The position numbers were made by a program, and so were the translations under genes. DNA of 50,814 bases from Thermoclostridium sp. (GTDB lineage Bacteria > Bacillota > Clostridia > DSM-8532), in NCBI GenBank assembly GCA_017995215.1, contig JAGOJH010000008.1, positions 1-50,814 of the forward strand, read 5' to 3'. Under the pieces are notes generated by a model that was given only the letters and a program-made list of their open reading frames with translations, was not told where the DNA came from and made no database searches. This document shows positions 42,299 to 45,847 of this stretch, one piece after another; the first letter of the stretch is position 1, and the number at the start of each line of letters is the position of its first letter.

Positions 42299-42827
42299 TC
42301 ATCAAGATAAATCTTTAGCAAAAATTTCGAAAAGAGATCTTGCTCCATTAACAAGAATAGAGAAATTAGAAAAAGAAAATTCAGACTTGAAAAAGCACAA
42401 TAAGAAATTGCAGAAGCAACTAGACGAATTAATTCTATCCAAACAGAAAAATACCTATAACCATATATCTGTTGCTTTTGATGATTATGAGAATACCCCT
42501 CCGAAAGCTCTTATAGAAATATTGGATAATTGTAGTATTGTTGTTATTGGCTTAAATGAACATGACAACGCATATCATTTTTTCTCAAAATTGCATAAAA
42601 ACCTAAAGATTATTGATGGATTCACAAAAAGCTATGATCCAAAATTGATAAAAAAGACCAAATTCGTTTTTAAAATTATTGGATTTATGTCTCATACTGT
42701 TGGATTTAGAGCAAAAAATGAACTCTGTGATAAGCCATACTGCGAATTACAAAATCACAAAAATACAAATTTATTAATGAATGCAATAGCTAATGTGCTT
42801 TGCCGATATTTCAATCTTAAAAAATAG
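42276..42827 (+). pseudogene. 5'-truncated coiled-coil protein resembling DUF2325
   Basis: Open frame of 183 codons with no ATG or GTG near its start; the first start-like codon is TTG 42387, without a Shine-Dalgarno. The N-part is a basic coiled coil (LTRIEKLEKENSDLKKHNKK, LQKQLDELILSKQKN). The C-part has alternating strands and helices (CSIVVIGLNEHDNAYHFFSK, FVFKIIGFMSHTVGFRAKNE) that resemble the small Rossmann-like DUF2325 domain, including the 'SH-x-x-G-x-R-A-K' helix. The base composition is clearly more AT-rich than the flanks, a sign of foreign origin. It lost its beginning at the same point as the gene on the other strand. Function unknown. Confidence 0.5.
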
Positions 42828-42905: not shown

Positions 42906-44621
42906 TTAGCTTCCAATAACTGCATCAATAGACTCTCTTTTATCCGGAACTGTATAATATACTGACTCTGGAGCATTCCAGGCAATTCCTTCTCTGATGC
43001 TTCTTCCGTCTTGCCGAATAATCCCTGCAGCTTTCAGATCTTCTATAAGGGGTATAAGGTTTTGAAGACTGTTCCCGGCTCCTTCCGACATCCTGGCTAT
43101 TGATATACCATGTTCCTGAGCCCGGAGATATGATAATACCTTCTTATGCTCATTGGTTAAAAAACTGCGATAAAGATAAGCGTGCGCATCTGTAACAGAC
43201 ATATCTGGGTATGTAACGCAAAGACCTTTAACGATTATGTTAATATAAGCGTATGCCGGAACCACATCTTCTATATACCGGGTGGAATGTGTAAAGCTTT
43301 TAATGAGTATTCCCATGTCATGACCAAGTTCTAGCATTCTATCATAGCAGCCACCTTCATTCATCGCTATTTCAGAAAACTGCTCCTGGGTGATTAAATA
43401 CATTTTACAGTAAGATAATCCTTCTTTACTTGTATCGAGAAACGCAATGCCCCTATTATCCCATCTCCTACTCTGATTCGCAAAATAAATTGGATGGTTC
43501 AGGATAAGTTGTTTTTCAGCCCTGGGGGGAGTCTTGTCCCGGCAACCTCCACTGCTGCACAATCTACCGGTTTCATCCCCTAAAATGTACTTCATGAACC
43601 GTTCCCTGTCTAAATTGGAACCATAGCATGCATACCAGACAAAGTTTTTCATATAATCTGTAATTCCCTCAAACCATGGTTGGAAGCAAAAATCAATCTT
43701 CCTTTTCCCTGAAACTGATCGGTTATACACATAAGTAAAGGTCTCTTTTTCATTGTTTTCTTCGTCATGTACCATTACCTTCAATCGCCTATATAACGAA
43801 CCTTCACCCTCATAAACATCAATTGCATCTATCATTTCCTGTGTAACCGAATACAGTTCACCTTTCACTTTTTCATTTCCGTCTTCTACAATCCCTGGAT
43901 AGTAATCAAGATCATACAGTGCATACCCCGAGAGAACGAAATCCCCAAGAAAATCTGCTCTGCCAAGATAAGTGTTCCCTTTCCTGCTGCTGCGCATTAA
44001 AGAGCCATATACGAATAAATTGAAGGTTTCCTGTGTTTCCATCATCTTTAACAATCTCCTCATAGTATCCGCGCTTACGGAACAATACTTTGATTCACCA
44101 TGACTCAATATTTCTTGAATGTTCTCCTTGTTTTGAACGATCATCTGGTTAAATGCTTTGTGAGTATCAGGATACTGATTTATGAAACGCATCACACCGG
44201 CATGAAGCAGCAATTCCAATGCGTCCATTCTGAAATTGAAGGAATCAAAGCCGTGTCCTGTAAGCCTTCCCTGTTCCACAATATCCAGAGCTCGCACGAA
44301 TGTCTCCTGAAAGCCTTCAAGCTTGGTGCATTCTTTGGGATAATCAAGCTTGAACCGTATCATGGTTGCAGTAAACAATATCGTTGGATACTTCCAGTAA
44401 TAAACTTTTGCATCATACGGCATGTCCTCACTGAAGATTAACCTCCAGAAACCGTCGGAATCTTGTTTCGCGATCAGTTGCTTCATGAACTCGTTTACTT
44501 CGTTGAAGTACTCATCATCCCAAGTATGTCTGTAAAGTAAAGCTTTGCTGCCCTTCATAAGACTTTCGTATTCTGAGAAACTCTTGTCGTCTGGTGGTAA
44601 TTTAGTGAATAATTTCATCAT
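42906..44621 (-). CDS. tandem gamma-glutamylcyclotransferase-like fusion protein
   Basis: 571 residues in four parts. (1) About 1-195: helical, toroid-like (AKQDSDGFWRLIFSEDMPYD, YPTILFTATMIRFKLDYP). (2) About 198-310: GGCT/AIG2-like fold with LFVYGSLMR and the glutamate segment DVYEGEGSLYRRL. (3) About 326-475: a second GGCT-like domain with WYACYGSNLDRERFMKYILG, a Cys pair (CSSGGC), FANQSRRWDNRGIAFLD and YLITQEQFSEIAMNEGG. (4) About 480-565: winged helix (NEHKKVLSYLRAQEHGISIA, RMSEGAGNSLQNLIPLIEDL). GGCT folds release 5-oxoproline from gamma-glutamyl compounds or reverse gamma-glutamyl adducts; the substrate here is unknown. AGGGAGGG lies seven bases before the ATG. The gene lies 86 bases downstream of a WYL-like regulator, same strand. 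Confidence 0.75.
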   Translation of the reverse strand: MMKLFTKLPPDDKSFSEYESLMKGSKALLYRHTWDDEYFNEVNEFMKQLIAKQDSDGFWRLIFSEDMPYDAKVYYWKYPTILFTATMIRFKLDYPKECTKLEGFQETFVRALDIVEQGRLTGHGFDSFNFRMDALELLLHAGVMRFINQYPDTHKAFNQMIVQNKENIQEILSHGESKYCSVSADTMRRLLKMMETQETFNLFVYGSLMRSSRKGNTYLGRADFLGDFVLSGYALYDLDYYPGIVEDGNEKVKGELYSVTQEMIDAIDVYEGEGSLYRRLKVMVHDEENNEKETFTYVYNRSVSGKRKIDFCFQPWFEGITDYMKNFVWYACYGSNLDRERFMKYILGDETGRLCSSGGCRDKTPPRAEKQLILNHPIYFANQSRRWDNRGIAFLDTSKEGLSYCKMYLITQEQFSEIAMNEGGCYDRMLELGHDMGILIKSFTHSTRYIEDVVPAYAYINIIVKGLCVTYPDMSVTDAHAYLYRSFLTNEHKKVLSYLRAQEHGISIARMSEGAGNSLQNLIPLIEDLKAAGIIRQDGRSIREGIAWNAPESVYYTVPDKRESIDAVIGS

Positions 44622-44628
44622 GGTTTTT

Positions 44629-44666
44629 CCCTCCCTGTTTTAATATAAGCTTATTTTAACAGGGAG
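44629..44666 (-). promoter_or_regulatory. hairpin over the Shine-Dalgarno of the GGCT-fusion gene
   Basis: In the minus-strand mRNA CTCCCTGTT and AACAGGGAG pair perfectly (9 bp) around an 18-base loop containing ATAAGCTTAT. The 3' arm contains most of the Shine-Dalgarno AGGGAGGG (44629-44636) of the GGCT-fusion gene. Folding would hide the ribosome site, suggesting translational control, for instance coupling to passage of ribosomes or a factor that melts the stem (inference). Confidence 0.5.
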
Positions 44667-44707
44667 TAGATATTAAAGATGTGAGCTCAGCTCTCAACTT
44701 TTCCGAA

Positions 44708-45724
44708 TCATATGTATTCTAGTTTTATATCAACAACTTCATTGATGTTAAGCTTTCGTCTGTTGTCACGCTGGTTCGGTTTGTAGATAAAGGCTTCCTT
44801 TGTTTTTATATCATAATCGACATGAACATTCTGGATTGGCTCTGAATCCTTGTTTTTTAAGATTATCGTGCATAGAGCACCTGACTTCCAAGCATAACTT
44901 AAAGCATTATCAATGCTTTGAGTTGCAACTGTTTCTTCATCTCTGCTACCATTAAACAAATGAAAATTATTTTCCTCCGGAAAACATATACCTTGATCGA
45001 TGCCCTTCCTTCGGATAACCTCTCTGGCATATTCAGACAATTGGCAAAAGATGTTGTCAGCAATATAGGATAAGGTCTCACCCATAATAGTATTTTGTGA
45101 ACGTTCCAGTAGTTTTAGGCCCACAGTCATCTGATAAACTTCGGTCAGGTTCAACGGGAGAAATATTGGATGCACAGTAGATTGATATGTAATTTTTCTG
45201 TTCTCTTCCTGAATATTGCGTATTTTTACTTTCTGTCCAAGAATTTTTGTTCCGTATATCAAAGCATCCATGTCTTTTCGAAGCGGATTATTACTGATGC
45301 TGTAATGCTCCCTCAATTCTTCTCTGGTTTTTCCCTCCTGCAAAACCTTCAGCAGATCTACAAGCCGCTCATAAGGGTTTAGTGCCTCTCTTCTAAAAAC
45401 TGTATCCAAAACCAGAGGGATATCTCGAGCTTCTAAATACTTCGAAAAGTGCAGCAATCTCTTCTGGGTAGCATCCTTTGTGTTTGTAGTTGTACTCAGC
45501 AATTCCAACAATAAGTCCGCCAGCATTAATCTGAATCTTTCGTTTTCCTTAAGAGTTTCAATGTTCATGTTTAAAATGAGGTCTACATCTATTTTTTCAT
45601 CTTCTATTCTGCTTTTCACATTTTTAAGGTTTTGAATATCTGTTGTTAAAAGCTGAATGACTGCCTGCTTGTCATCGGATTTATAGTTTTCAAGATAATC
45701 ATTGATAAGATCTGATAATTTCAT
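44708..45724 (-). CDS. HTH/WYL-like transcriptional regulator
   Basis: About 338 residues from ATG 45724 (AAAGGAG nine bases upstream; the 29 upstream codons are unlikely). The N-part is helical (MKLSDLINDYLENYKSDDKQ). A DeoR/HTH_11-like motif follows (LKVLQEGKTREELREHYSIS, NNPLRKDMDALIYG), then a helical dimer-like block, then a C-terminal small beta domain (SIDNALSYAWKSGALCTIIL, YDIKTKEAFIYKPNQRDNRR). That layout matches WYL-type regulators, which bind nucleic acid or nucleotides and often control defence or stress genes. No WYL triad is visible, so it is a divergent member. It probably controls its own transcript and the GGCT fusion. Confidence 0.6.
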   Translation of the reverse strand: MKLSDLINDYLENYKSDDKQAVIQLLTTDIQNLKNVKSRIEDEKIDVDLILNMNIETLKENERFRLMLADLLLELLSTTTNTKDATQKRLLHFSKYLEARDIPLVLDTVFRREALNPYERLVDLLKVLQEGKTREELREHYSISNNPLRKDMDALIYGTKILGQKVKIRNIQEENRKITYQSTVHPIFLPLNLTEVYQMTVGLKLLERSQNTIMGETLSYIADNIFCQLSEYAREVIRRKGIDQGICFPEENNFHLFNGSRDEETVATQSIDNALSYAWKSGALCTIILKNKDSEPIQNVHVDYDIKTKEAFIYKPNQRDNRRKLNINEVVDIKLEYI

Positions 45725-45847
45725 GAGGAACAACTCCTTTCTATACCTAATCCATCTCATCTCGCAGTGCAGGAATGCCTTTGCAACTGTGTCTTGATCA
45801 AGGAACTTCAAACGCTTTACGATCTCTCTGGTAGGTAGCGGTCGGAC

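Follow-up and report, generated by a model that had tools for sequence, protein, structure and literature searches.

A WYL-linked protein with two GGCT-like domains in Thermoclostridium sp. and its modular relatives

Tandem GGCT folds are known, YkqA of Bacillus subtilis (PDB 2qik) being a protein of this kind. The fold itself is defined by a YGSL motif and a catalytic glutamate, Glu98 in GGCT and Glu82 in GGACT, and the GGCT-fold enzymes known so far use small gamma-glutamyl compounds (PMC7022552). Among the WYL-type regulators, SiwR is experimentally known to act on an adjacent operon via a 19-bp palindrome located between this operon and siwR (PMC10693628), and the DriD sites are found at a constant distance from the -10 box, overlying the -35 box (PMC12340889). 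WYL regulators also co-localize with defense systems, and one WYL relative, BrxR, is a repressor (PMC9122601).

Here we describe a two-gene cassette from Thermoclostridium sp., found in a stretch of 50,814 nucleotides (contig JAGOJH010000008.1, hereafter the window), in which the gene of a WYL-type regulator, REG, adjoins the gene of a four-part protein, called here the effector. The best reading of the data, which we consider fairly likely, is that of an accessory gamma-glutamyl cyclotransferase effector activated by the WYL-type regulator and probably responsive to stress or phages. If true, this would give a role in the stress or virus response to a fold known from small-molecule metabolism.

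Domains of the effector

The effector gene (42906..44621, minus strand) encodes a protein of 571 amino acids with the order NTD, GGACT-like domain, GGCT-like domain (D2), and winged helix. The open reading frame is real, with an ATG start and a good ribosome-binding site, GGGAGG, upstream. Four domains are visible in the AlphaFold2 model, which was built on an alignment of 49 relatives and has a mean pLDDT of 92.7: an all-helical segment (residues 1-197), two GGCT-like segments (199-310 and 327-487), and a winged helix (490-571). In the Foldseek comparison of this model with PDB, YkqA is the top match (280 columns), followed by YtfP-like proteins, human GGCT, GGACT, and ChaC2, with MarR-type winged helices ranking after the GGCT-fold proteins. 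Pfam recognizes domain 1 alone, and no NCBIfam profile matches the effector. The initial annotation had proposed a four-part protein with two different GGCT-like domains, and AlphaFold2, Foldseek, the PF06094 match, and the D2 profile all agree with it: both middle segments come out GGCT-like, and the motifs LFVYGSLM and WYACYGSNL are found where it had placed them, at residues 202-209 and 329-337. Its statement that GGCT proteins are normally single-domain was too strong, considering that the top fold match, YkqA, is a tandem protein. The four-part architecture is real. Two cyclotransferase domains in one protein have a precedent in YkqA; what is new is the cassette with a WYL-type switch.

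The first cyclotransferase domain (residues 199-310; 43692..44027, minus strand) is of the GGACT/AIG2 type. Its PF06094 match (E 5e-23) spans residues 202-308 and scores 82.4 bits against a cutoff of 22.8; the YG[ST]L motif is present in 34 of 34 alignment rows, and the catalytic Glu271 (codon 43809-43811) is invariant in 37 of 37 sequences. The second, GGCT-type domain D2 (residues 325-487; 43161..43649, minus strand) is assigned from its predicted fold and from a profile match to human GGCT. In Pfam there is no family for the D2 of the window, and two of the 24 D2 proteins match weakly. The D2 profile finds human GGCT with E 2.6e-7, independently of the AlphaFold2 model, and places YGSNL over YGSNL. 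The catalytic Glu422 (codon 43356-43358), invariant in all 46 sequences, falls on chain position 98 of human GGCT, as counted along the printed alignment, that is, on the catalytic Glu98. The GSN triplet is kept in 45 of 45 sequences and the complete YGSN in 43 of 45.

Since catalytic glutamate and YGS motif alike are conserved in the two domains, both look, as far as sequence tells, like catalytic ones rather than like an enzyme and a reader. This does not favor the earlier suggestion that one domain writes or removes a mark that the other reads. For the GGCT fold in general, a mark of the gamma-glutamyl or isopeptide type would still be expected.

The cassette also makes D2 a definable family, at present unrecognized by Pfam or labeled "histone deacetylase". 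The latter annotation, carried by some actinobacterial D2 relatives (records H3-H5 and H15), is apparently a propagated misannotation. Three free-standing D2 genes (L022 4419-4922, L024 1958-2455, and L025 5142-5639) adjoin genes labeled by eye as M55 D-aminopeptidase-like, GntR-type regulator, and citrate-synthase-like, and these neighbors are a possible lead to the D2 substrate.

The N-terminal domain, NTD (residues 1-197; 44031..44621, minus strand), belongs to no known family and has the conserved motifs P-x-D-x-[RK]...PT[YI] and GHG[FY]. Of its earlier description as a toroid-like helical N-terminus, the helical part stands and the toroid label is not established: when its profile was compared with solved structures, the sole toroid match was a weak one to lanosterol synthase (E 0.21). 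The NTD also pairs with another type of GGCT (L026). The C-terminal winged helix (residues 490-571; 42909..43154, minus strand), likewise proposed in the initial annotation, is confirmed by the AlphaFold2 model and the MarR-type Foldseek matches, and the HTH matches of relatives L034 and L035 support the assignment. Downstream of the effector gene, a 146-aa open reading frame without a family match (42387-42827, plus strand) lies in a low-GC region.

The WYL-type regulator and distribution of the cassette

The REG gene occupies 44708..45811 on the minus strand. Homology begins at residue 30, and the likely true start is the ATG at 45724, preceded by AAGGAG, which yields a protein of 338 aa. 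In a Foldseek search with the AlphaFold2 model (pLDDT 87.5), PafBC (E 1.7e-4) and DriD (E 1e-3) are the top two molecules, with low TM-scores. REG has no match to PF13280 (WYL) in Pfam and a weak WYL match in PADLOC (E 0.003).

The linkage to REG, established computationally, is obligate: by a profile-based count REG is adjacent in 29 of 29 loci that fuse NTD with D2, against none of 43 D2-only and none of 21 GGACT-only loci. A constant WYL-like neighbor, for which a check had been proposed, is thus seen at these fusions, which come from several bacterial lineages. The REG profile was trained on many of the counted loci, its first version on five; the held-out locus L057 still matched it (1.9e-12). 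Directly upstream of the regulator in L031 (1064-2637) and L032 are a DUF434/DUF5616 gene and one that, judged by eye, is ADP-ribosylglycohydrolase-like.

Full-length homologs of the effector are rare. In the class, five of 391 genomes, including that of the window, have a match over most of the protein (G000, G372, G236, G024, and G216), and full-length homologs from other families within the class are 46-47% identical to the effector; neither of two searched genomes of the same genus has a near-full-length homolog. A scan of genome contigs with a single protein query found nothing, and it was the alignment-based scan that detected the loci, 80 in its wider form, with further ones added from a phylum sample. 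Architectures were sorted with separate profiles for NTD, GGACT, D2, winged helix, and regulator. The same four-part domain order, for which a search had been proposed, is found in the window and in L018, L019, L031, L032, L034, L110, and L111. Other proteins have three parts and no winged helix (for instance, L020, L039, L049, and L056) or combine NTD, D2, and winged helix (L035, L046, L047, and L058); further forms are fusions of GGACT with D2, split genes next to each other, and, in many phyla, D2 or GGACT encoded on their own. Separate, unlinked homologs, which the initial annotation had named as a finding against its reading, do exist (the 43 D2-only and 21 GGACT-only loci), and the modules are therefore mobile; still, the fused NTD+D2 design together with the regulator is a conserved unit.

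The distribution of the cassette is patchy and modular. No neighbor other than REG is conserved widely among the NTD+D2 loci. The GC content of the cassette in the window is 39.0%, against 45.4% in the flanks, with no consistent direction of this difference at other loci. One IMG/VR scan for the full design returned only GGACT-type proteins without the NTD; on the viral contigs L143 and L144 (5323-6396 in both), a protein of 357 aa contains two domains of the GGACT type. A second copy of the cassette within one genome (L171 3335-6157, G633 C1) has an effector broken by a stop and lies approximately 20 kb from the intact copy, adjoining the gene for Wadjet JetA.

Nuclease fusions, neighbors, and alternative functions

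Several relatives of the effector contain additional domains. A C-terminal HNH domain of the type IV restriction type is present in L034 and L035 (E 1.6e-20), an ASCH domain is fused in L062, and L055 has a HEPN-like RxxxxH stretch, noticed by eye and matched to HEPN by neither Pfam nor PADLOC. Defense genes are found near a number of loci. L039 is accompanied by brxA-brxB-brxC (PADLOC), and the brx genes of L049 are 71-76% identical to those of L039, with the effectors of these two loci only 52% identical. McrB/McrC-like genes with DUF2357 and PD-(D/E)XK neighbor L055, and McrBC-like genes are recognized by similarity at L034; DrmB (DISARM) is near L059 and Csx1 (CRISPR) near L020. The JetA gene of Wadjet adjoins both L171 and L028, an NTD-GGCT gene.

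These contexts agree with a dedicated anti-phage system, in which REG would sense infection and the effector would kill the infected cell or attack the nucleic acid of the phage, with a gamma-glutamyl-type modification as the target of the cyclotransferases. The nuclease, HEPN-like, and ASCH fusions and the BREX, McrBC-like, DrmB, Csx1, and JetA neighbors all point this way, as do the co-localization of WYL regulators with defense (PMC9122601) and a random-gene control drawn from two of the genomes, in which the PADLOC matches were, among those listed, only generic. However, D2-only loci lacking REG likewise have defense neighbors, so that the neighborhood alone does not single out the cassette, and because of this we hold the defense reading only tentatively. 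PADLOC gave no specific match of P0001 to a known system, and the window copy contains no nuclease domain and, on an unsystematic look, no recognized defense genes in its flanks.

A broader form of this idea seems to us doubtful: a new class of anti-phage or DNA-damage effectors, where a WYL activator would sense infection-derived nucleic acid and induce a two-site cyclotransferase protein that removes or exploits a gamma-glutamyl-type modification. It is a similarly weak possibility that this modification would be on nucleic acid or protein and that the nuclease domains (HNH, HEPN-like) would be attached to such effectors in some lineages.

Enrichment of PADLOC families was considered as decisive evidence for defense and rejected. 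The counts, which are of models and not genes, were 179 families in the test set, 120 in the D2-only control, and 73 in the random control, so the D2-only control is also rich. Separately, L020, L038, L045, and L060 share a nearby protein family resembling an HNH restriction endonuclease; the masked copy from L020 has no PADLOC match.

An unlikely alternative is a metabolic enzyme for salvage of gamma-glutamyl compounds derived from polyamines, peptides, or the cell wall, controlled by a ligand-sensing WYL repressor or activator and unrelated to DNA damage or phages. It accords with the small gamma-glutamyl substrates of the known GGCT-fold enzymes (PMC7022552) and with the M55 D-aminopeptidase-like gene (by eye) beside three D2-only genes. 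Against it stand the winged-helix, HNH, and ASCH fusions, the patchy distribution, and the absence of conserved metabolic neighbors from the NTD+D2 genes.

The effector promoter and relation to known systems

The space between the two genes contains an imperfect 17-bp palindrome, TGAGAGCTGAGCTCACA (44680..44696, minus strand), a putative REG operator; across loci, the intergenic palindrome is of the type TGGAA-N7-TTCCA or TGAAGCTGAGCTTCA. The core GAA-N7-TTC follows the REG stop in 17 of 31 loci, with 1.4 expected from shuffles, and control stops in 14 of 188 cases (7%; Fisher p 3e-9). Upstream of effectors, it is found at 13 of 33 loci with REG and at one of 67 without (p 9e-7). The strict palindrome is absent from about half of the REG loci, and in the genome of the window a regulon search yielded one exact operator copy only. 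The predicted -10 box of the effector's own promoter, TAAAAT (44653..44658, minus strand), is 21 bp from the palindrome and has an extended -10 TGT and no -35 consensus. At 18 of 25 loci the best -10 hexamer is located 21-22 bp past the palindrome (mean 1.75 and maximum 7 in 1000 shuffles); the choice of palindromes was made in part by eye, with no selection for the spacing to the -10 box. The -35 boxes are poor, with a mean of 2.2 matches out of 6, and the extended -10 occurs at 10 of 19 loci. A palindrome at fixed spacing from a -10 box with no -35 consensus is, by analogy to SiwR and DriD, best read as an activator-type promoter.

At L053, where the two genes are divergent, the palindrome is before the effector and not after the REG stop, and Coriobacteria also keep a palindrome before the effector. 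T-runs follow the palindrome in L019, L035, L039, and L112, where a hairpin with a T-run could double as a REG terminator; a plain terminator was set aside because of the L053 placement and the fixed -10 spacing. That the palindrome is a terminator or a repressor site of REG, the two genes being co-inherited neighbors and nothing else, is quite improbable: the T-runs and the repressing activity of the WYL relative BrxR (PMC9122601) speak for it, and the spacing, the placement in L053 and Coriobacteria, and the 29/29 linkage over several lineages speak against it.

An inverted repeat, CTCCCTGTT...AACAGGGAG (44631..44666, minus strand), overlaps the effector ribosome-binding site with one arm. 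The mean unpaired probability of the ribosome-binding region is 0.29, against 0.39 with shuffled upstream sequence, and about one third of the loci are individually convincing. The arm could mask the ribosome-binding site in read-through RNA, which is suggestive only. Similar repeats, hinting at such masking, are present in L034, L052, and L111.

Returning to the accessory cyclotransferase effector under a WYL activator, we suggest the following scheme. REG would be a ligand-responsive activator rather than a repressor, and the analogy to PafBC, DriD, and SiwR makes ssDNA or another nucleic-acid sign of damage or infection its probable signal. The signal-bound REG would occupy the palindrome just upstream of the -10 box and recruit RNA polymerase despite the missing -35 box. 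The GGACT-like and GGCT-like sites of the effector may then release 5-oxoproline from gamma-glutamyl-linked substrates, and the NTD and winged helix (in relatives, the HNH, HEPN-like, and ASCH parts) may position it, plausibly on nucleic acid; a role in the stress or phage response is proposed as well. The cassette is a conserved mobile one, with two GGCT-fold domains under a WYL-type switch, nuclease fusions, and defense-island neighbors, and it is directly testable, since its regulator, putative operator, and predicted promoter are named along with the two catalytic glutamates.

A literature search limited to open-access papers found no described system of this composition. YkqA resembles the effector as a tandem GGCT-fold protein and its best fold match; however, its 269 aa correspond to about two GGCT domains and thus cannot also accommodate an NTD, a winged helix, and further parts. 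It superposes poorly on the effector (rmsd 15.6), which suggests that the domains are arranged differently. Domain 1 belongs to the GGACT/AIG2/YtfP family (PF06094) by its sequence and conserved glutamate, whereas the known members of this family are small single-domain proteins; the regulator partner is absent from all 21 GGACT-only loci. D2 aligns with human GGCT (C7orf24) across YGSNL and Glu98 but is divergent and unnamed in Pfam. Like REG, the defense-island regulators BrxR and CapW are WYL regulators near defense systems; BrxR, however, is a repressor, unlike the proposed activator REG, and is a weak fold match (E 0.23). Finally, SiwR with its DinB-like target operon, PafBC, and DriD share with REG the WYL type and a palindrome in the target promoter. 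SiwR, like REG, has an adjacent target gene, and DriD, as in the cassette, has a fixed distance to the -10 box over the -35 position. The effectors of these three differ from the one described here, REG has an extra helical N-terminus and no recognizable PF13280, and the palindrome of the cassette is placed further upstream than that of SiwR.
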